From Synechococcus sp. Tobar12-5m-g (lineage in GTDB: Bacteria; Cyanobacteriota; Cyanobacteriia; PCC-6307; Cyanobiaceae): a DNA stretch of 64,000 bases. The notes under the pieces were generated by a model. It was not told the DNA's origin and ran no database searches. It worked only from the letters and a program-made list of their open reading frames with translations. The stretch is from assembly GCF_024345415.1 (NCBI RefSeq), contig NZ_JAGQBB010000013.1, positions 1 to 64,000 of the forward strand, read 5' to 3'. Shown one piece after another: positions 47,925 to 59,035 of this stretch (position 1 is the first letter of the stretch; each line of letters starts with the position of its first letter). The position numbers were made by a program, and so were the translations under genes.

Positions 47925-48226
47925 TGCCAGGACCTTCCTTCTCGACGCTTCCATCGTGAAAGCGTCCTTGGGGATCCAGGGTGATCTCAGTCCCGAAACC
48001 TGGTGATCCTGATCATCTCCGTGTTCCAGCTACTCTTGGGTTGGTCACGCTCCGCTGGCTTCAGTCCTGCCCCCAGATTGAGAAGGCAGGACTGTGCTCT
48101 CAGGGATCGTTGAAGGAGTGAAGCGCCCCATCCTGTGAGTCGGATCACAGCAGTCCTTGTGCTTGGTCACTGTCTCAGTGCGGGATCGATCACCAGACTG
48201 GGTTGCACCCGATGAGGGACCGTTCC
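47925..48226. other. Divergent promoter region with CRP box
   Basis: About 300 bases between the giant-protein gene (minus) and the DUF928-like gene (plus). Contains the perfect CRP box at 48134-48149 and a GAGGGA ribosome site (48214-48219) for the plus-strand gene. No other gene-like frame. Confidence 0.6.
48134..48149. promoter_or_regulatory. CRP-type operator TGTGA-N6-TCACA
   Basis: TGTGAGTCGGATCACA, a perfect match to the CRP consensus also used by cyanobacterial SYCRP1. It lies 78 bases before the DUF928-like start (48227) and 210 bases before the giant-protein start (47924), so it can serve either promoter. Same half-sites as the box at 58187. Confidence 0.8.
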
Positions 48227-48943
48227 ATGGCATCTCGACTGACTGCTTCCCCCAGGATCGGAAGGCTCAGGATCCGGGCAGCTTTGGCGGCCATCCTGCC
48301 GGTCTTGGCTCTTATCGCGCCGAAGGCCACAGCAGGAGACAACAGCCGCAAGTTTCCTGTCTACCGGGAGTCAGGTGGCAGCCGGGATCTCTGCCTGTCC
48401 CGGAAGGTGGTCCACCTGGTGCCTTTAGACAGCCGGTTCGCTCCCGGCAAGGCCCGCAGAATCGCTCTCCTGGAAGGGCAAAGTACCGATCCTCGGCCCT
48501 TGATGGTGCACCTGGAATCGCTCGGACTGTGGACACTGCCACCGAGGCCCCCCGGGGTGCGGCTGCTGACGATCCCGTCCATCGATCGCGAGGTGCTCTG
48601 GGAAAGTTTCCCCCGTTGCCAGGATGCGGACCAACCTGAAGGGCTGTCCGGCGCTCCGCCGGCCCGTTCGTTGCTGGAGCCGCTCCCAGGCGCTGATGAT
48701 CAAGAGGCCGTGCTGGAGATCCAACGGCTCAGCCGAGCCTGCGGGGGGACCATTGCCACAGCCGGATTGCTGGCCGTGTTCTCCTATGAGCACCTGATGG
48801 GTCAACTTCCAGCGCGACTCCCGGTGTCCTGCGAGGGGTTGTCAGGAGCCTCGGGGCTTGCCCCATCGATCAGTTCCCAGGCTTCCAGCCCCTCCGAGCG
48901 CCCATCAAGCGGCACCATCCCCCGGGGTTTCCAGGCACCCTGA
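48227..48943 (+). CDS. Secreted DUF928-like protein
   Basis: 238 residues from ATG 48227, with GAGGGA eight bases upstream. RIRAALAAILPVLALIAPKA TAG is a signal peptide. The mature start KFPVYRESGGSRDLCLSRKV followed by VHLVPLDSRFAPGKARRIAL resembles DUF928, small secreted cyanobacterial proteins that recur beside CHASE2, CHAT and FhaC genes; here they also adjoin. The last 140 bases overlap the convergent cyclase gene, and the C-terminal 45 residues are low-complexity, so the true fold may end near residue 190. Function unknown. Confidence 0.6.
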   Translation: MASRLTASPRIGRLRIRAALAAILPVLALIAPKATAGDNSRKFPVYRESGGSRDLCLSRKVVHLVPLDSRFAPGKARRIALLEGQSTDPRPLMVHLESLGLWTLPPRPPGVRLLTIPSIDREVLWESFPRCQDADQPEGLSGAPPARSLLEPLPGADDQEAVLEIQRLSRACGGTIATAGLLAVFSYEHLMGQLPARLPVSCEGLSGASGLAPSISSQASSPSERPSSGTIPRGFQAP

Positions 48944-50736
48944 ACCCGATCAGCGACCAACCGATGGGTGGTGGATGACACCATCACCTGGCAATGGTCG
49001 GTGATGGTTGTTTTGGCGAAGGATTCGATTCTGGAGGCGCAGTTGACGACATCACCGATGAGGCCGAACTCCCATCGTTCCGGGCTCCCGACCGACCCGG
49101 CGATGACCCAGCCGCTGTGCAAGCCGACCCGCAGTTGCAGCAAAGGTTGGCCTTCCAGCTTCAGGAATCCATTGAGTTGCCTGAGCTGTTCACGCATTGC
49201 GGAGGCCGAGTTGACGGCGGCGGTCGCGTCTTCGGCGACTCCCTGGCTGAGGGGGGCCCCAAACACGGCCATCAGCCCATCCCCGGTGAACTTGTTGACG
49301 AGCCCACCGTGCATGTGAACCGATGACACCATCACGCCCATGCTCCTGTTCAGCCAGGTGAGCAAAGCATCTGGATCGAGGCGTTCGGCCAGGCGGCTGA
49401 AATGAGCGATGTCCGCGAACAGCACCGTGACGCACACCTGGCGGCCGGGGAATCGCCCGCCCTCCAGCAGTCCCTGCCGCTTGTCCAGAAGTTCGTGGGC
49501 CATGGCAGCCGAGGTGGTTTGACCAAGCAGGCGCTCCAGTTCGAGGCCTTGCCTTTGCTCTTCCATGCCACGGCGGGTCCAGGCGGCGGCGGAGAAGGCT
49601 GCCAGGGCGGCCAGGGGCAGCGCGCCGTCAAACCAGACCCCTTGGCCCAGAGCCACGGCACCGGCGAGGGCAGCCAGGAGAGCCAAAGTGCCGACGGCCG
49701 CCAGGCTGCGGCGCAGGCTTCCGATCCCTTCTCCGAGGCCGATCCCGAGCCCCAGGCCCGCCAACACCAGAAGGGCATTCGCCCAGCCCGGTGCCGCCAA
49801 TAGGCCGAAGGAATGGCTGCTCTCCTGGGCCAGCAGGGCTGCGGTGCGATGGGCGTGGATTTCAACCCCCGGCATCGTGGCGAGGCCCCGTGCAGCGCCG
49901 AACCGGCTGAAGGGGACTCGGAAACTGTCTCGCAGGGAGGGCGCCAGATTGCCGATCAGCACGATTTTCCCCCTCAGCTCGGCGGTGGGCACCCCTCCGC
50001 TGAGCAACAGACTCAGGCTCCAGGTCGGGAAACTTCCAGCCCGGTGAAAGGCCAACATTCTTTGCACACCAGCATTGTCGAGGTCGGTGTAGCCACCGCC
50101 GGATTGCTCCAGGCCTGAAAGGTTCGAATCGCCGCGCTCAATTCGCTGCCGCAACAGGGTTTTGCCGGTGGCAACCTCCAGCAGACGCATCGGCAGGGTC
50201 ACCCCCTCTGGGCCCAGTCCGCGCACATGGACCAGATCACGGCGCACCACACCATCCGGGTCAATCGTCAGATCGATGTACGCACGTCGGTCTGGCGGGG
50301 TTCCCGGAATCGCACCGATCCGGTCAACCGCGCTGTACACCGACACCAGGCGGCCGTGGCTGGCTGCCAGGGAGCGGAGGCGTTCTTGGTGGATGCCGAC
50401 ACCAAGATCCCGATAGAGATCAAGACCGATGGCGCCGACGCCGGCCCGATCCAGACGCTCGATCGCCTCGGCCAACAAACCATCATCCAGGGGCCAGCCC
50501 AGTTTCCTCAGGTCCGCTTCCCCGATGCCGATGATGGCGATCGGCGTTTCCCGACCAGAGGGGGCGGCACGCCACTGGGTGACCAGATCGTAGAGAAGGA
50601 GATTCAGGCTCTCGCTGAGGTGAGCCTGACGGAGCGACACCAGCAGCACCAGGGCCGCGGCATAGGGAATCAGGCGCCGCAGGCGCTTCCAGGCAGGGCG
50701 CCCCGGAGTTGACCGATCCATCCACCTGGGGGCCAT
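48802..50736 (-). CDS. CHASE2-domain nucleotide cyclase
   Basis: 644 residues. Membrane helix LIPYAAALVLLVSLRQAH, an extracytoplasmic CHASE2 sensor (about 50-330; DLVTQWRAAPSGRETPIAII, RGKIVLIGNLAPSLRDSFRV), three further helices (about 340-430), and a class III cyclase domain from 436. Metal Asp442 (FADIAHFS) and Asp486 (NKFTGDGLMAVFG), and Asn565/Arg569 (IGDVVNCASRIES) are intact. Lys482 is the adenine-selecting residue; the partner position, Asp/Thr in known adenylyl cyclases, is Gly, so cAMP is likely but not certain. Last gene of the secretion operon, 14 bases after the FhaC gene. ATG 50736 chosen, alternative 50721. Confidence 0.9.
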   Translation of the reverse strand: MAPRWMDRSTPGRPAWKRLRRLIPYAAALVLLVSLRQAHLSESLNLLLYDLVTQWRAAPSGRETPIAIIGIGEADLRKLGWPLDDGLLAEAIERLDRAGVGAIGLDLYRDLGVGIHQERLRSLAASHGRLVSVYSAVDRIGAIPGTPPDRRAYIDLTIDPDGVVRRDLVHVRGLGPEGVTLPMRLLEVATGKTLLRQRIERGDSNLSGLEQSGGGYTDLDNAGVQRMLAFHRAGSFPTWSLSLLLSGGVPTAELRGKIVLIGNLAPSLRDSFRVPFSRFGAARGLATMPGVEIHAHRTAALLAQESSHSFGLLAAPGWANALLVLAGLGLGIGLGEGIGSLRRSLAAVGTLALLAALAGAVALGQGVWFDGALPLAALAAFSAAAWTRRGMEEQRQGLELERLLGQTTSAAMAHELLDKRQGLLEGGRFPGRQVCVTVLFADIAHFSRLAERLDPDALLTWLNRSMGVMVSSVHMHGGLVNKFTGDGLMAVFGAPLSQGVAEDATAAVNSASAMREQLRQLNGFLKLEGQPLLQLRVGLHSGWVIAGSVGSPERWEFGLIGDVVNCASRIESFAKTTITDHCQVMVSSTTHRLVADRVQGAWKPRGMVPLDGRSEGLEAWELIDGASPEAPDNPSQDTGSRAGS

Positions 50737-50750
50737 GACGTCGGGCGGAA

Positions 50751-52466
50751 CTAGAAGCGATAGCTCAGCTTGGTGTAGATCCCGCTTCCGAGCAGCCAAT
50801 CTCCCCAGAAGGGTCGCTGTTCGGTGCCGAACTGGTTGGACCAGCCCAACTCGACGAGCCAGCCCGATCGATTCACCCAGCGCAGCAGGAGCCCCCCGGC
50901 CCCGGCGCCGTCCGTGAGGGTTCCATCGGTTGTTTCGGTGCGGATTGCGCCCGCGCCGATGAACGGCACCAGCTGAAGCAGGGTCTGGCCCTGGCTCCAG
51001 ATGCTCCAACTGAGTTCGGCCCTTCCGAGCAGGCCGCTGTCACCGCTGATCACCTGGCCGGGAAGGCCCCGCAGCCCGTTATCGCTGCCAAGGGCAAAGC
51101 CCATCGGGCCGGTGAGCGGTTGGAACGCAAGCTGGCCCGCGGCGCCGAGTTGGAGCTGCCAGCGGGGGGCAAGGGCCCAGGCCCCGTTGAGCTGGCCGCC
51201 GATGCTGCGGGCTTCTCCAGGTTGGATACCGAACGAGGCCAGGTAGTTCAGCTGGGCCGCGGTGCTGAGGCCGGCAATCCCCTGGAGCCCGTAGACACTG
51301 CCGCTCCAGGCGAAACCGGCACCGCGGCCCTCGGCGTTGATGCCCGCTCTCAGAAAGCCGGTGCGAAGCCAGCCTTCGCTCCCCCCGCCACCGATGGCGG
51401 GGAAGCTGGCTCCGGCCAGGTAGGCGTCGCTGCGACTGACGCTGAGACCGGCGAAGGCGGACCAGCGACTGGAAGGGGTTTCCCAAAGGGTGATCTCCAG
51501 TTGCCCCAGCAGCTGCAACTGGCGAAAGGAGAGCTGATCTGCTGGCGGGATCGCTTCGACAAGAGTGCGGCGACTCACCCCCAAGGCAGTTGTGAAGCCG
51601 AGGCGATCGCCCAGAGGCAGGCTGTAGCTGATCGAGCCGATGGTGTAGCCCAGGCTGGGCTTGGAATCGGTGTTGATCTCACCGAACACCAGCAGGGTGT
51701 CACCGCCCAGGGCGAGATTGTTCTTCAGCAGGGTGGCCAGGCCCCGGAATTGGCCGCTGCCGCCATTGCCGTCGTTGCGGAGGGCGACTTCTCCCTGTAG
51801 CGGCTCTGCAGCGGATTCGGCGTTGACCACCAGGACGGCCCGGGTGGAGTCGCCACCGAGCCGGTTGAGTTTGGCGTCCAGTTGGCCGACGCCGGAGAGT
51901 CGTTGAAGCCGTTGGATCGTGAGCTCGAGGCTGGGCAGGTGCAGAACGGTGCCCTGCAGCGGCAGCAGCAGCCGCTGCAGCCTTCGGGTCAGGCGTGGGC
52001 TGGTGCTGGTGATGTTGATTTCGACGATCCGCCCCTCGACCACTTCCAACACCCCTGGAAAAGGCGTGGCCAATGGATACACCCGGCTGTTGACGTAACC
52101 ATCCAGCACGAGCCGGGTGGTGAGGGCGGCGGCACAGGCGCTCAGCCGCTCGGCGGGATAGGCGATCGCGGCACAGGGAACCAGGATCCTCCTGAGTTCA
52201 TCGGCTGTATAGCGGTCAAGCCCTTCGACCCGCGGCAGTCCCTGCGGATCTGCTCCACCGGGTTGGCGCCCCTGGGGGGGCTGCTGCTGAGGCTCCCTTG
52301 GCAGCCTGGGCTCCACCTGCTCGTTCGGCTGCTGAAGCTGCGGTATTGGCTGGCGTTGCTGGCCCGGGGCCTGGGGCGGCTGAACGATGCCGGAACCTGG
52401 CAAGCGCACCGGCCCCGGCTGAAGGGGCGGGGCGACGAGCTGGGCGAGCAGCTGCAGGGCGATCAA
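50751..52466 (-). CDS. FhaC/ShlB/HecB-family two-partner-secretion transporter
   Basis: 571 residues. Signal region, Pro/Gln-rich linker (about 15-75), a POTRA domain (VEGLDRYTADELRRILVPC onward, with VLDGYVNSRVYPLATPFPG then VLEVVEGRIVEINI), and a C-terminal 16-strand barrel with many alternating strands (GFTTALGVSRRTLVEAIPP) closing on a terminal phenylalanine (YTKLSYRF). FhaC-type barrels export TPS proteins across the outer membrane. In the same operon as a TPS-domain protein, its probable substrate. Start overlaps the upstream gene by four bases. Confidence 0.92.
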   Translation of the reverse strand: MIALQLLAQLVAPPLQPGPVRLPGSGIVQPPQAPGQQRQPIPQLQQPNEQVEPRLPREPQQQPPQGRQPGGADPQGLPRVEGLDRYTADELRRILVPCAAIAYPAERLSACAAALTTRLVLDGYVNSRVYPLATPFPGVLEVVEGRIVEINITSTSPRLTRRLQRLLLPLQGTVLHLPSLELTIQRLQRLSGVGQLDAKLNRLGGDSTRAVLVVNAESAAEPLQGEVALRNDGNGGSGQFRGLATLLKNNLALGGDTLLVFGEINTDSKPSLGYTIGSISYSLPLGDRLGFTTALGVSRRTLVEAIPPADQLSFRQLQLLGQLEITLWETPSSRWSAFAGLSVSRSDAYLAGASFPAIGGGGSEGWLRTGFLRAGINAEGRGAGFAWSGSVYGLQGIAGLSTAAQLNYLASFGIQPGEARSIGGQLNGAWALAPRWQLQLGAAGQLAFQPLTGPMGFALGSDNGLRGLPGQVISGDSGLLGRAELSWSIWSQGQTLLQLVPFIGAGAIRTETTDGTLTDGAGAGGLLLRWVNRSGWLVELGWSNQFGTEQRPFWGDWLLGSGIYTKLSYRF

Positions 52467-53098
52467 CGCCCAATGGTTGCTGCTGGTTCCGGAGCAGGGG
52501 CCTGCACTGGTGGCGGCAGCTTGTCCTTGGAGCTTTCTGATGGCTCAGCCTCAGCCACCAGGACGAAAGACGTTTCCAGAACATTCAAGGACGGATCAGC
52601 CGGTTCGATGGACAACGACCTGCCGCTGGCATCGGTGAATTCGGCGATGACGGTTCCCGGATTGCCCTCACTTCCGTAGGCCTCGGTGTCATTGCTGAAG
52701 CTCGCCAAAAGGCCGCGGCCGGGGAAGTAAACGAAAGGAATATGAGAACCCTGGCTTGGTAGCTCAACACCATCTTCGCGATTTAGAGGCAACCGGGCAA
52801 TGAAGATCTTTTGGGAACCGGCCTCCAATGGCTTGCCATTGAAGATGATCCGCTGGTCATCAGGATTGAAGACCAGCCTCGAATCCCCAGGTGAGAATCC
52901 CACCAATCTGGCGACGCCTGGCACGGGTTTGAGCGGGGTGACTTGACCTGGCAAGCGTGACCAAAACAGGAGTGCAACAACCAGAAGAGCAATCAGTAGG
53001 CCAAGGGCGATGCAGAGAGGGTTTGGCCTGAAACTATTGTTCGGCTCGGAGGGAGTAGGGCCTGAGCTGCTCATGGATGTAAGGGGGTAATTCATCAT
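52463..53098 (-). CDS. Membrane-anchored protein of the TPS operon
   Basis: 211 residues. A short disordered N-terminus, one membrane helix IALGLLIALLVVALLFWSRL (about 31-50), then a periplasmic beta-rich domain: LVGFSPGDSRLVFNPDDQRI, FVYFPGRGLLASFSNDTEAY, VIAEFTDASGRSLSIEPADP. A Pro/Ala-rich tail (PPPVQAPAPEPAATIGR) follows. Family not recognised; a periplasmic helper for the TPS system is inferred from its place between the secreted protein genes and fhaC, with a four-base overlap to fhaC. Confidence 0.7.
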   Translation of the reverse strand: MMNYPLTSMSSSGPTPSEPNNSFRPNPLCIALGLLIALLVVALLFWSRLPGQVTPLKPVPGVARLVGFSPGDSRLVFNPDDQRIIFNGKPLEAGSQKIFIARLPLNREDGVELPSQGSHIPFVYFPGRGLLASFSNDTEAYGSEGNPGTVIAEFTDASGRSLSIEPADPSLNVLETSFVLVAEAEPSESSKDKLPPPVQAPAPEPAATIGR

Positions 53099-53824
53099 TC
53101 AGGGGACAGGGATGATCGAACAACGATCTAGCCAATCTCCCGATGAATTTAGGATTCCGCCGCCATAGGTGGTGGCACCCATGACGAACCCTCCCCCACT
53201 CGCATTCGCCTTCCAATAATAGAGACGTCGTAGGCAGTCAGCCGACTCCATCGCTCGATTGATGTAGACAGCATTGTTCGTGCCGGCGCCAAACGTAACC
53301 AAGTCTTTTTCGCTTGCAATTCCGGTTGTAGTTACTGCAAGGCAATCTGTGCTGCCTGATACGGTGCAAGAAGGCAGCCTGGTGATGCTTGTTTGGGCGG
53401 AGTTGCCCAGCACATAGGTGGTGGGTTGGCTGCCACCAGAAAAGGTGTTCGAGCCAATGTTGCCCACCATGATATTAGGACCGACACCTGAACTGCCGTT
53501 ACCAGTTCCATTCAAGGGAAGTCTGCCAGCCAAGGTAAGTCGAGTCACCTTGCCACCAAGTGAGATGGATTGATTTGTTGAGACAGTAGCATCTTGGGGA
53601 TGCCAGAACACATGGGTAATGGGTGGTTCACCTGTCGTTTGCAGACAACTTAGATCACCCGGGTCCCTAAACTTGCAGATCATTGCGGTGTTCGGTTGGG
53701 CCGCCAACCCTCGTTCCGGCAGAATGAGCCAAGCGATCGCCATCACGGCAAGCAGAGCGATACCGCGGCGTATCCAGCCTGGCAATAAGGAAGATAGCGG
53801 GGGAGCATTGGAGGGGTTCATCAT
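53099..53824 (-). CDS. Exported protein of the TPS operon
   Basis: 241 residues from ATG 53824. Basic start then a signal segment RRGIALLAVMAIAWLILPER with cleavage after GLAA. The mature protein is Ser/Thr/Gly/Asn-rich with cysteines at MICKFRDPGDLSCL, SCTVSGSTDCLAV and ADCLRRLYY, plus DWLDRCSIIPVP: six to seven cysteines suggest disulfides. The middle, GPNIMVGNIGSNTFSGGS, is beta-helix-like. Not recognised. The stop abuts the next gene, and the start is 68 bases after the CHAT protein stop. Confidence 0.7.
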   Translation of the reverse strand: MMNPSNAPPLSSLLPGWIRRGIALLAVMAIAWLILPERGLAAQPNTAMICKFRDPGDLSCLQTTGEPPITHVFWHPQDATVSTNQSISLGGKVTRLTLAGRLPLNGTGNGSSGVGPNIMVGNIGSNTFSGGSQPTTYVLGNSAQTSITRLPSCTVSGSTDCLAVTTTGIASEKDLVTFGAGTNNAVYINRAMESADCLRRLYYWKANASGGGFVMGATTYGGGILNSSGDWLDRCSIIPVP

Positions 53825-53891
53825 GTGGTTTGGTGCGAGCACATTTTTCTGGGGATAATACCAAGTAATGGCGGATAAATTGTGTTCATTG

Positions 53892-56800
53892 TTACCAAGG
53901 CCTGCCGGTGAGCAATACGCCTGCCCAGTAATACGGATGGGTGAGGCCTTGGGCATACCGCGCCTGATCACTGCGCGAGAGGTCACGGATCAGAACTTGA
54001 CCACCAGGCCCGATAAGATCGGACCCGGACACTCTGATTTTGCCCCGCTGGAAGGCCCGGCGCGTGGCCTGCAGGGCCACGTCCTTGGTCATTCCCCCCC
54101 TCAGGTAACGGTAGAACTGGATGAAAAAGGCCGCGTTGCCGGCGTCGTCCACGGACCAGAGGGTACCGAGTCCTGAATGGCCGCCAAAGGTGAGTGCCGC
54201 TCCAAGCAGGCCAAGCTCACTGCGCTCGTCGCCAAGTGCGGTTCGGCAGGCACTCAGGCTGACCAGATCCAGCCGGTTTGGCGTGCGCTTCCCAGCCTGG
54301 AGGCTGGCGAGATTGAATGCGCCGTTAGTGGTGTGGAGCGTACCAAGACCTGTTTGGCCGGAGCTTAGTTCCGCATGGGTAGCGATATGGATCTGGGAGT
54401 AGTTGGTGGTGTTGATCCGGGTACGAAGATTGGGCCCATTGAACGCATCATCGAGCAGTAGATCGGAGGGCTCGCCGGCGGAGATCTCCCCAAGTTCCTG
54501 TTTAACGAGAGGAAGTGGAACCAGGCCCGAACTGAACTTGCTCGCCCCGGCCAGGAGGATGCGCCGGGGAGTATCTCCTGGATCTGGAGAAGGCGTACTG
54601 AGATCGGTGAGGCCAAGGGAGGGAGTGATGGTGAGGGCAAAACGCTGACCGAAAAAGCTGGTTTCCGTGAGCGGAAGGGCAGCAAAGGGGATCGCCTGAA
54701 GCCTCCGATCCGCTGAAAGCAGAACCGAGGTAATCCGCTCCTTCTCCAACACGGGGAGAACATCCGCGAGCAGGAGTGAGGCGAGCTCACGGCCCTGCGG
54801 CGATTGCCCGGCCTGATCGAGCCATTCCATGCGGCTGAACTGTCGCTGCACGTTGCCAATGAGTTGATGGAGTGCCTCCTGGTTGACGCGGTGCTGCCAG
54901 CCCAGCAACGGACCGTGGGGAGGGATCAACACCACATCGATCAACACCTCGCCCGTTGGCAGGGGCCAGGCGTTGAACCTCAGGATGGCTGGGGAATAGG
55001 GCCTTCCGGGGCCGCCCTCTAATCCTGAGGGGGAAAGCGCCTGATGACGCCGATCGGCCTCGCTCGCCTGCAAGTTCTCCTGCAGCGTGGCCACGCTGGG
55101 TACCACGGTGTCTCGGCCGGATTCGAGGCCGAGAGCCTGGATGGTTGACTTCATGGCAAGGCTTTCTCCCCGCTCGAAGCTTTCCACCCCTTCGGGAACG
55201 CTCAGCAACCGCACCGGGTTTATCGGTGGCAGCGAGGGCCCCTGGGACATGATTGACGACCCCGCAGCAACGAGCCTTTCGCCTTCGCTGATGCTGCCCG
55301 CAGCAACCTCAGGTGTTGAGATGGCCTTAGTGATCCCTTCACCGCCAGGGGGGGGGATCACAACAGCGGTCACGGTCATCGTGGGTCCAGGGGCCAACCA
55401 CCAGTTACGAGGTGGTTCCCAGGGGAACTCCACGGCATTCACTGAGGCCGAAGCGATCGAAGTTGCTGAAGGGATCACGGTAGAGTTACTAATCCCGTCT
55501 GGCGTGCTAGTGATCAATGTGATCTTCTGGTCAGGCTGACCACCTATAAGGGGGTTGTTGGTGACGCCCCCCGGCTCAAGAACGATGGTGTACGCATTGA
55601 CCAGGCCAGTCTCACGGCTCTGGTTCACAAGCCCTTCGGGACCGTCTAGAACGGTATCAACCGCCCTACCACCCTGGATTTGAATGGCTCCTAGATTATT
55701 GCGAAGTTGATCAAAGCTTACCTGGATTTGGTTGCCAACTTCTTCAGGCGAGCCGATACTGATCTGCAGGGAGCCTCCAGGAGTTAGCAGGAGGCCAGAG
55801 CCATCTGAAGTGGCCACTGCCGATCGCAGCTCAATGGAGCCCGTGGCTGCAGGATCCTGCGCTGTTGCTGTGCGTCCAGTCGTGATGGAGCTGTCGATGG
55901 CGATAATCGCCCCAAGGCCTGTGAGAGCCAATTGGCCGGCTGGAGCCAGGGTGCTTTGATCACCGCTGATGTTGAACCTGGTGTTGCTGATGGTTTGCTG
56001 ACCTCGGCTGACTGCTCGAATTGCACCTTGAAAGCCGAACGGATCAGGCTGAAACGGGTATCCAAGATCTGGGGAGATTGGATTGCTGCTGCTCACATCG
56101 AGTGTGGCGTTAGCCAATGCGATGTTCGAGTTGCTGAAAAGGTCGATCCGGCCACCCCGCCCGAAGAAGTAAGTTGCATTTCCAAGAGCCTTGGGGGTGT
56201 TGAACAGGGTTCCACCGGTGCGTGCCGTCAGAGTCGATTCCTGATCGATGGTTAACCCTTCCTGACGGTAAGCCGAGAGATTGAGGATCTGGATACTGCC
56301 GCCGAAGCTTTCAAGCTGACCACCGAGGCTCGGTGAGCTGTCGACACTCAGAACAGAGTGGTCTGTGACTTGAATACCCCCTTGGGAAATCACCCGAATC
56401 TTTCCACCCAGAACAGTAAATCCGGTGCCTGCATCAACTGCATTATCTGTGCCATCGGTTCGATCAGTGAAACGTATTATGGGACCACCTTCCTGGGAAT
56501 CCACGAATGTGCGGTTCTCCAGCGGCCCGGCGGACGTGTGATACGGGGCATTCAACGTCGATCGTTGGATTGTGATGCCTTGCTTCTTTGAGTTGTTGAG
56601 AAGGGTAATTTCTCCTCCTGCAAAGTTACTGATTGTTGCCCACCCTGTTCTTCCTCCGGGGCCGGCCGGAAAATGGTCGCTCTCGGCAATCAGCTTGCTG
56701 TTGAAGAGAACAATTCCTGCAGCGCTGCTCAACCGCAGATCACCTGATCCCGCCCCTCCGCTGGCGCCCAACAGGGAGTCGGACAGTTTGATTCCTCCAT

Positions 56801-58130
56801 TGTTGCCGTTGGACTGGAAGGCAAGGTTCCCCGCCAGATTGTGCGTCGCGTCGGCGCGGGCCACGCTGCGGCGGAAGTCAATCCCACCATCGGCAGCCAG
56901 CACCACATTGCCACTGGTGTCTGTAAGTTGAATCGCGCTGCGCGGCAGAGCTGGATTTGCCTCCAGCAGCGGCGTCAGAATTTGGGATGCGTTGAGAGAC
57001 GATCCACTGACGAGGATGTCGCCCTTGGAGAACAGGCCGATTAGGGGGTCAGGGTCAGGTTGGGTCAGCGTCGCTCCGCTGTCGAAAACAACGGAGGTGA
57101 TGGGAGAGCGGAGGTCTTCCAGCGTGTGAACACCCACATCCAAGCTGCTGTTGACCACCGACAGCGGTTGGTCGGGGTTCCAGCTTTCCAGGTGGATCAA
57201 TCCCTTCGGCGCCAGGAGCGTGCTGTCAATCACCGAAACCTTGCCTGCCCTCAGGAACAATTGCTTGCCTTCAAGGTTGGATTGCTGCAACTGAAGGGCA
57301 TCGATCGCCTGAAGATCGATCGCCCCGCGTTTGCCGGGCTGGCCAGATTTCAACTGGATGTCGTTCAGCTCGATCTGCTGCGCACCAAGTCGCAATCGGT
57401 CAAGTCCAGGTTCGGTGAGCGGCAGGTAACCCGCCGTGAGCAGGCTGTTGCTGCCGGCTTCGCTGCGAATGGCACCGTTGCCTGCCTCGAGAATCAGCGA
57501 CCGGTCCACCGTCAACCTGCCTCCGGCCAACACGATCGACCCGTTTGTTGTCCCCAGCCCAAGGCTGTCCAGGGTTCCCAAGCTCGTTTTGAGCGCCTGC
57601 CAGCTCAGCTCCGGCGGTGCGGTCAGGGCAGCAGCTGCGGCGGCATCGGTGCTGAAGGCATCGAAAACGCCACTCTCACCAATCCTCAGGCCCGTGGAGG
57701 TGGAAAGCAACAGATTCGTGGTGTTCACCACCTTGGCTCCAGGCCCCAGCCAGATGCCGCCGGGCGAGAGCCAGAACAGGTTGGCCGGGGCCGAAAGACT
57801 CAGCGTCTTGTCGAGAAAGGTGCCGAGCCGGTCGCTGACCCCCACGATCACATTGGAGCGTCCCTGGGTATCGATGCCCACCCCGTTGATCCCGCCGCGG
57901 GTGTCAAACTGTTGGAAGCGATGAAACAAGTTGGGGCCTGCCGCAGTGCCGCCGCCGACGGAGCAGAAACCGCTGCTGCAACGGCCGTTCGTGGCGCCAT
58001 TCACCTGGGTTCCCAGACCCCCTCCGACCACGTCGGCCAAGGCCGGAAAGGACACGAGGACCAGGGCGAGGGACCCGAAACGGAACCACCGAACTCCCAG
58101 GATGCCCTTTTGTGTCTTTCTCAGACGCAT
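53892..58130 (-). CDS. Secreted TPS-domain (haemagglutinin-like) protein with C-terminal CHAT protease
   Basis: 1412 residues. Signal MRLRKTQKGILGVRWFRFGS then LALVLVSFPALA; the TPS domain (about 33-290) has NLFHRFQQFDTR, SDRLGTFLDKTLSLSAPANL and FWLSPGGIWLGPGAKVVN, the NP(N/G)GI motif position. A long beta-helix follows to about residue 900 (many IDLQ, GGSLQI and GGxI segments), then a Pro-rich linker and CHAT (about 1090-1412) with His1252 in IHIATHAEL and Cys1295 in SLSACRTALGDERSELG, and a C-terminal strand LTHPYYWAGVLLTG. CHAT domains are caspase-related cysteine proteases (or inactive relatives). Probably exported by the operon FhaC. A CRP box lies 56 bases upstream. Confidence 0.88.
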   Translation of the reverse strand: MRLRKTQKGILGVRWFRFGSLALVLVSFPALADVVGGGLGTQVNGATNGRCSSGFCSVGGGTAAGPNLFHRFQQFDTRGGINGVGIDTQGRSNVIVGVSDRLGTFLDKTLSLSAPANLFWLSPGGIWLGPGAKVVNTTNLLLSTSTGLRIGESGVFDAFSTDAAAAAALTAPPELSWQALKTSLGTLDSLGLGTTNGSIVLAGGRLTVDRSLILEAGNGAIRSEAGSNSLLTAGYLPLTEPGLDRLRLGAQQIELNDIQLKSGQPGKRGAIDLQAIDALQLQQSNLEGKQLFLRAGKVSVIDSTLLAPKGLIHLESWNPDQPLSVVNSSLDVGVHTLEDLRSPITSVVFDSGATLTQPDPDPLIGLFSKGDILVSGSSLNASQILTPLLEANPALPRSAIQLTDTSGNVVLAADGGIDFRRSVARADATHNLAGNLAFQSNGNNGGIKLSDSLLGASGGAGSGDLRLSSAAGIVLFNSKLIAESDHFPAGPGGRTGWATISNFAGGEITLLNNSKKQGITIQRSTLNAPYHTSAGPLENRTFVDSQEGGPIIRFTDRTDGTDNAVDAGTGFTVLGGKIRVISQGGIQVTDHSVLSVDSSPSLGGQLESFGGSIQILNLSAYRQEGLTIDQESTLTARTGGTLFNTPKALGNATYFFGRGGRIDLFSNSNIALANATLDVSSSNPISPDLGYPFQPDPFGFQGAIRAVSRGQQTISNTRFNISGDQSTLAPAGQLALTGLGAIIAIDSSITTGRTATAQDPAATGSIELRSAVATSDGSGLLLTPGGSLQISIGSPEEVGNQIQVSFDQLRNNLGAIQIQGGRAVDTVLDGPEGLVNQSRETGLVNAYTIVLEPGGVTNNPLIGGQPDQKITLITSTPDGISNSTVIPSATSIASASVNAVEFPWEPPRNWWLAPGPTMTVTAVVIPPPGGEGITKAISTPEVAAGSISEGERLVAAGSSIMSQGPSLPPINPVRLLSVPEGVESFERGESLAMKSTIQALGLESGRDTVVPSVATLQENLQASEADRRHQALSPSGLEGGPGRPYSPAILRFNAWPLPTGEVLIDVVLIPPHGPLLGWQHRVNQEALHQLIGNVQRQFSRMEWLDQAGQSPQGRELASLLLADVLPVLEKERITSVLLSADRRLQAIPFAALPLTETSFFGQRFALTITPSLGLTDLSTPSPDPGDTPRRILLAGASKFSSGLVPLPLVKQELGEISAGEPSDLLLDDAFNGPNLRTRINTTNYSQIHIATHAELSSGQTGLGTLHTTNGAFNLASLQAGKRTPNRLDLVSLSACRTALGDERSELGLLGAALTFGGHSGLGTLWSVDDAGNAAFFIQFYRYLRGGMTKDVALQATRRAFQRGKIRVSGSDLIGPGGQVLIRDLSRSDQARYAQGLTHPYYWAGVLLTGRPW

Positions 58131-58186
58131 TATTGGACCCATGAGAACTGTCCAGGCCAATCAAAGCAACTCCCCGCCGGGGTCGT

Positions 58187-58202
58187 TGTGATTAAGATCA
58201 CA
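58187..58202. promoter_or_regulatory. CRP-type operator TGTGA-N6-TCACA
   Basis: TGTGATTAAGATCACA, a perfect CRP consensus, extended by one base pair of symmetry each side (TTGTGA...TCACAA). It lies 56 bases before the start of the TPS/CHAT gene and 138 bases before the crp start, in their shared divergent region. Same motif as the box at 48134. Confidence 0.85.
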
Positions 58203-58339
58203 AAGCCAGCCCCCAGGCCCTCTTAGGCTCCATTGGATCGCCTATCAAGGCAGCATCTGGCGATGCAGCCTCAGGCATCGATCAACCAGCTTTGACACTT
58301 GGGCAGTGACTGTTTCTTGAACCACGTAGGCAGGCCCGG

Positions 58340-59035
58340 ATGGTTACGCAAAGCCCCACCAAAGCATCCGATCTTGCCGAAATCAGCTTGTTCGCCCTGC
58401 TCAGCGAGCAGCAACGGCATCGGCTGTTGGATCAACATCGGGGGGTCACGTTTGCTGCCGACCAGTTGCTGATCCTGGATCATGATGAATCCCAGGGCCT
58501 GATTCTTCTTCGTAATGGCATTGCCAAAGTCCGTCGATTCACCAACGACGGCGAGGAGGCCGTGCTCTCCCTCCTCGGCCCGGGTGAAGTGTGTGGCGAA
58601 ATGGCCGTTCTCAACAACGGCCGCCGTTCAGCCGATGTCGTCAGCCTCACGCAATGTGAAGCCGTCTTCCTGCGGGTCGGTCCCTTTCGCGAACTCCTGA
58701 ACTGTGAACCCAGGCTTGCCCTTGCCTTGGCGAAGCTTGAAGCCAGGCGGCTGCAGGACCTCAACCGTCGTTTCACCTTGCGGGGGGCTGATGCCAGCAC
58801 CCGCCTGCTTGCCACGCTCTGTGACATCGCCGTACGCGCCCACCCGGGCGCCGATACCTTCGCGGCAACTCCGCCCCTGCCGCATCGGGAGCTCGCGGCG
58901 CTCTCCGGGCTGGCTCGGGAGACGACATCACGCACCCTCAGCAAGTTGCGCCAGCGCGGCATCGTTGTGGAGGTGCATGGCGGTGGTCTGAAGATCGTCG
59001 ACCGTGAGTCCTTGCGTCAGCGGGACCTGCTCTAG
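58340..59035 (+). CDS. CRP-family transcriptional regulator
   Basis: 231 residues. Cyclic-nucleotide domain with the phosphate-binding cassette GEMAVLNNGRRSA at 86-98 (Glu87, Arg96 in the CRP positions), a dimerisation helix, and a winged helix whose recognition helix ARETTSRTLSKL matches E. coli CRP SRETVGRILKML at the DNA-contact residues Arg193, Glu194 and Arg198. This predicts TGTGA half-sites, which occur in both flanking divergent promoters of this block. The gene is divergent from the TPS operon containing the cyclase. Confidence 0.92.
   Translation: MVTQSPTKASDLAEISLFALLSEQQRHRLLDQHRGVTFAADQLLILDHDESQGLILLRNGIAKVRRFTNDGEEAVLSLLGPGEVCGEMAVLNNGRRSADVVSLTQCEAVFLRVGPFRELLNCEPRLALALAKLEARRLQDLNRRFTLRGADASTRLLATLCDIAVRAHPGADTFAATPPLPHRELAALSGLARETTSRTLSKLRQRGIVVEVHGGGLKIVDRESLRQRDLL

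Follow-up and report, generated by a model that had tools for sequence, protein, structure and literature searches.

A probable local CRP regulon at a CHAT/two-partner-secretion locus of a freshwater picocyanobacterium, and a related CRP clade with a changed operator

Does the CRP-type regulator at the edge of this locus control its own neighbours, and through which sites? The locus lies in a 64,000-nucleotide stretch (the window), part of the 2.95 Mb genome, in 47 contigs, of a freshwater picocyanobacterium, where an earlier note had marked two perfect copies of TGTGA-N6-TCACA and proposed a cyclic-nucleotide regulon around them. Both copies are exact and both fall, as that note had it, in divergent promoter regions: box 1 separates the gene of a GlmS-like protein from that of a small secreted protein (X238), and box 2 separates the gene of a CHAT-domain protein from crp (Table 1). 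Based on the comparisons given below, we consider it quite probable that these features make up a small dedicated cyclic-nucleotide regulon, in which CRP acts through the two boxes on a CHAT/two-partner-secretion output; comparison with relatives gives good support to the note's central claim, that of a putative local CRP regulon.

Table 1. Features of the locus in window coordinates
Feature	Position	Strand	Remarks
GlmS/SIS-like membrane protein, 1251 aa	44199..47954	-	weak GlmS likeness; probable CRP target
Box 1, TGTGAGTCGGATCACA	48134..48149	none	perfect TGTGA-N6-TCACA; divergent promoter region of GlmS-like gene and X238
Degenerate second CRP-like site	48156..48171	none	exactly 22 bp from box 1; 4 mismatches
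X238, small secreted protein of a cyanobacterial family	48227..48943	+	start codon uncertain; convergent with cyclase
CHASE2 class III cyclase	48802..51009	-	Pfam CHASE2 1.2e-44, Guanylate_cyc 1.1e-22
TpsB, two-partner-secretion outer-membrane pore	50751..52466	-	Pfam ShlB 5.3e-12
X211, 211-aa protein, operon member	52463..53098	-	ORF shares 4 bases with TpsB
X295, 295-aa protein, operon member	53099..53986	-	homologues in CS-1325, G005 and LBMAG bin3
TpsA-like filamentous protein with C-terminal CHAT domain	53892..58160	-	Pfam CHAT 1.7e-40
Box 2, TGTGATTAAGATCACA	58187..58202	none	perfect TGTGA-N6-TCACA; between CHAT gene and crp
Candidate -10	58224..58229	+	TAGGCT (TAGGGT in CS-1325), read directly; weak consensus
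CRP, SyCRP1-type	58340..59035	+	Pfam cNMP_binding (PF00027) 3.7e-18, HTH_Crp_2 (PF13545) 7.7e-15

Downstream of box 2, on the minus strand, the ORFs for the CHAT protein, X295, X211, TpsB and the CHASE2 cyclase overlap or are tightly packed, and this gene order suggests that they constitute one operon. The CHAT gene likely starts at the ATG at 58132, and the true start of the cyclase probably lies downstream of 51009. TpsB supplies the ShlB/FhaC pore with a POTRA domain by which two-partner secretion is recognized, the POTRA_2 match standing at E 0.0034, below the cut-off, as does the match of the CHAT protein to the TpsA N-terminal secretion domain (adhes_NPXG, E=0.0029). Homologues of X211 are present in CS-1325 and in the genomes G005 and G267, and those of X238 are known from about 50 relatives. 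The DUF928 label that the earlier note had attached to the divergent pair at box 1 was dropped, as six members of the X238 family gave zero Pfam matches at E up to 1; a structure model of X238 (mean pLDDT 84) had no confident structural match. For its divergent neighbour, NCBIfam GlmS at E=0.033 on the SIS motif and Foldseek hits to GFAT-1/SIS isomerases at E ~1e-4, the latter from a model of mostly low confidence (mean pLDDT 44.6), weakly support a possible GlmS identity, and Pfam, its SIS family included, returned no match. Literature searches that paired CHASE2 with haemagglutinin, or CHAT with two-partner secretion in cyanobacteria, turned up no relevant work.

Aligned to E. coli CRP (reference checked against 1i5z), the regulator retains Arg180, Glu181 and Arg185 in its recognition helix, bearing out the DNA-contact residues reported before, and the phosphate-binding cassette is intact at Gly71-Glu72 and Arg82-Ser83. 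These residues and the operator are shared with the E. coli CRP-cAMP system, from which the window protein differs in having Leu/Asn for the cAMP-pocket residues Thr127/Ser128, and in a regulon that looks local rather than global. As the Leu/Asn pair, found also in nearly all Glu181-type relatives, means that the ligand is not assured to be cAMP, we name the protein CRP-type; cAMP would be the most likely ligand. A search of the genome with this protein recovered only itself and NtcA, and it is the sole SyCRP1-type regulator found there. The CHASE2 cyclase is indeed present between the boxes, with both Pfam domains above cut-off. Its alignment to 2w01 and 6fht shows the two metal-binding Asp, the Asn-Arg pair and the adenine-selecting Lys; its base-specifying positions are Lys/Gly, the Gly occurring in both structures and the combination being that of 6fht, which was deposited as an adenylate cyclase. 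Since the genome contains five class III cyclases in all, along with 12 cyclic-nucleotide-binding-domain matches, the CHASE2 cyclase is a candidate rather than an established feeder of this CRP.

We then counted box patterns genome-wide, either perfect or by number of mismatches, with the reversed motif as control. The entire genome holds four perfect copies, as against none of the reversed control, and at up to two mismatches 435 sites as against 238. The earlier note had allowed that the box being common elsewhere in the genome would speak against its proposal, an objection that falls away with only four perfect copies. The two outside the locus, one within a histidine-kinase ORF (C10:34633) and one in a gap that is not close to any gene start (C23:13867), look like chance occurrences. 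Within the locus, the degenerate site beside box 1 has counterparts: across eight X238 promoters, positions offset by 22 average 3.4 mismatches, as compared to 7.5 +/- 0.9 for offsets of 16-89. The candidate -10 and the centre of box 2 are 32 bp apart, a spacing that could be class-II-like toward crp.

Relatives keep this arrangement to different degrees. The sister species Synechococcus sp. CS-1325 (2.9 Mb) has exactly two perfect boxes, both at the orthologous places. In its box 2 the spacer has changed from TTAAGA to TCCAGA with both half-sites intact, in a flank that is ~70% identical; around box 1 the entire leader is conserved, and the conservation of that box is accordingly less informative. 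Of the two further genomes with the same architecture, LBMAG bin3 carries a perfect box between its CHAT gene and crp, and CE-Jul18-108 an equivalent of box 2 with one mismatch. Boxes near the CHAT start are found in CS-1325, G267, LBMAG bin3 and G029, that of G267 being the single perfect box of its genome. Next to its CHAT gene, G005 has a crp pseudogene that breaks off ahead of the HTH (L116:14517-15050), and its counterparts of the two boxes have decayed, one carrying 1 mismatch and the other 2.

These counts bear on whether the boxes belong to an ordinary global CRP, for which this locus would be one of many targets and the signal would come from other cyclases. Many marine relatives have 4-27 perfect boxes, PMC2633013 depicts the CRP regulons of cyanobacteria as broad, and the five class III cyclases would offer other sources of signal. 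However, genomes of the window's own CRP clade contain few perfect boxes (4, 2, 0 and 1), the majority of them within this locus, and the other two perfect sites of the window genome are not promoter-proximal. We regard such a global role as unlikely, and favor the dedicated local regulon.

To place the locus in its family, 300 genomes were sampled, 59 with this CRP and 241 without it. Perfect boxes average 6.2 per genome in the former and 1.1 in the latter, with the control at 0.8 in both groups, and box counts track the presence of CRP (Mann-Whitney p=6e-14 over the 300 genomes), although here and below the p-values overstate independence because the genomes are related. When up to one mismatch is allowed, X238 has a box 50-85 bp upstream in 10 of 25 Glu181-CRP genomes, representing about three genera, and in none of 30 others (22 CRP-less and 8 with Gly181; Fisher p 1e-4), so that equivalents of box 1 are present in other genera too. 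At the CHAT start the corresponding figures are 5/19 and 0/17 (p 0.03). Neither X238 nor CHAT has a box in many CRP-bearing relatives. A perfect box within 350 bp upstream of crp was found for only the two window-genus genomes among 46 Glu181-type genes, and we therefore rejected the box as a family-wide conserved element of crp autoregulation; LBMAG bin3, which lies beyond the scanned 46, likewise has its perfect box near crp. The genes themselves are linked more widely: in a set of 51 CRP loci, part of which was chosen because of CHAT genes, a class III cyclase lies within 10 kb at 35 and a TpsB gene at 23, and a CHAT gene lies within 12 kb at 22.

A single CRP clade (13 genes, 100% support) served as an unplanned control for the dependence of the boxes on CRP. 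In this clade, as sampled in L247, L248, L249, L250, L252 and the CRP loci L176-L195, Glu181 is replaced by Gly, or by Ala in one gene, and the TGTGA boxes stand at 0.73 per genome with the control at 0.64, as compared to 7.6 and 0.85 in Glu181 genomes. Instead, TGTCA-N6-TGACA lies upstream of the clade's own crp in 10 of the 13 but in none of the 46 Glu181 genes (p 5e-9), a difference that, coming from one clade, amounts to one evolutionary contrast for the operator switch. Genome-wide, this sequence is rare, with 1-5 copies in Gly181 genomes and 0-4 in comparison genomes. The two operators differ in the fourth base of the half-site, which we take to be base pair 7 of the E. coli CRP operator; Glu181 of E. 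coli CRP contacts base pair 7. In four Gly181 genomes crp is divergent from a homologue of the window GlmS-like protein (45-50% identity), with TGTCA-N6-TGACA between the two genes, and several of these genomes have a second copy at the opposite end of the GlmS-like gene, ~3.8 kb from the first. In one case (L247:5378-6986) the second copy, ~3.8 kb off, stands upstream of a haloperoxidase/PAP2-like gene. We are inclined to think that the dedicated and mostly local CRP regulons of picocyanobacteria fall into two lines with diverged operators (Glu181 with TGTGA-N6-TCACA and Gly181 with TGTCA-N6-TGACA), in which one base pair per half-site changed together with residue 181 while both lines kept a class III cyclase and a GlmS-like gene as partners; the clade would thereby offer a natural experiment on the joint change of a transcription factor and its operator.

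The same contrasts weigh upon the notion that the boxes serve NtcA, a member of the CRP/FNR family encoded in this genome, or some other factor, the adjacent CRP being incidental. NtcA sites are GTA-N8-TAC (PMC3898017) and its recognition helix differs (TRVTITR), and it is hard to see in those terms why genomes without this CRP have boxes at control level, or why a change at residue 181 of precisely this CRP family should go with a changed operator; we hold the notion to be very improbable. The expectation of 0.06 perfect boxes per 64 kb in the earlier note assumed equal base frequencies and drops to ~0.02 at the measured composition (65% GC), and its verdict of non-chance stands. We give practically no credence to the boxes being chance palindromes in intergenic DNA: though a genome of this GC content should contain ~0.9 perfect boxes by chance, two or more in 64 kb have P ~2e-4, both are kept in a sister species with no further ones, and boxes recur in other genera.

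Returning to the dedicated local regulon, we posit that a CRP dimer carrying a cyclic nucleotide, most likely cAMP, would bind both boxes. Through box 2 it would control the CHAT-X295-X211-TpsB-cyclase operon and probably crp as well, and through box 1 the secreted X238, with the GlmS-like gene as a probable further target. Two-partner secretion would deliver the end product, a CHAT protein that is either secreted or displayed on the surface. What the comparisons show is the boxes themselves, how they are conserved, that they depend on this type of CRP, and that the genes are linked; we infer binding by CRP, the sign of the regulation and the sensing of the periplasm that had been ascribed to CHASE2. 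As for the local targets proposed earlier, X238 and the CHAT operon appear to be under CRP control, to which crp itself can probably be added, and the GlmS-like gene is a plausible target because its homologues share the CRP operator region in another clade. The suggested feedback fares less evenly: in the window genus the box-2 operon ends with the cyclase gene, making a loop possible, but in most relatives that gene lies convergent to X238 without belonging to the CHAT operon, so feedback via box 2 would be particular to the window arrangement.

Parts of this picture have precedents. Xu and Su (2009) predicted TGTGA-N6-TCACA as the operator for cyanobacterial CRPs (PMC2633013), and SyCRP1 of Synechocystis and AnCrpA of Anabaena are described as binding the CRP consensus cAMP-dependently (PMC4284465). 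The window protein shares with these two the consensus and the DNA-contact Arg-Glu...Arg, and SyCRP1 also controls cell-surface proteins; the window regulon differs in being mostly local and in its targets, X238 and the CHAT/two-partner-secretion operon, of which the available portions of PMC2633013 and PMC4284465 make no mention. The repeated linkage of CRP, class III cyclase and two-partner-secretion/CHAT genes was already noted as Syn_GI122 of marine Synechococcus/Cyanobium by Dore et al. (2020), the available text of which reports that adenylate cyclases and secreted CHAT proteins occur close to CRP or to a cAMP-regulated mechanosensitive channel (PMC7522525). That is an observation of gene content, and the same text does not mention operators, X238, the GlmS-like gene or an operator switch. 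What is new here is the operator evidence together with the Gly181 control clade: the operators turn a known genomic island of crp, cyclase and secreted-protein genes into a testable circuit, and picocyanobacterial cyclic-nucleotide signalling gains a concrete and compact target in the secretion of a large CHAT protein.

Some further sites and genes were encountered in the course of the scans. Three one-mismatch boxes at L034:9415, 9616 and 9817 (G000:C3) are spaced by exactly 201 bp and are probably a repeated coding unit, not operators. Another one-mismatch box, TGTGATCATATTCACG at L026:9703 (G000:C14:20202), adjoins genes for a cNMP-domain MscS-type channel and a class III cyclase, and lies upstream of a putative secreted-protein gene on the minus strand. 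Finally, a second cluster with a cNMP-domain protein is found 10-25 kb away (L022, G000:C5:69-83 kb), where a glutaminase-like protein with a cNMP domain, a cNMP-domain MscS-like channel, a FecR-like protein and a further CHASE2-type cyclase are also encoded.
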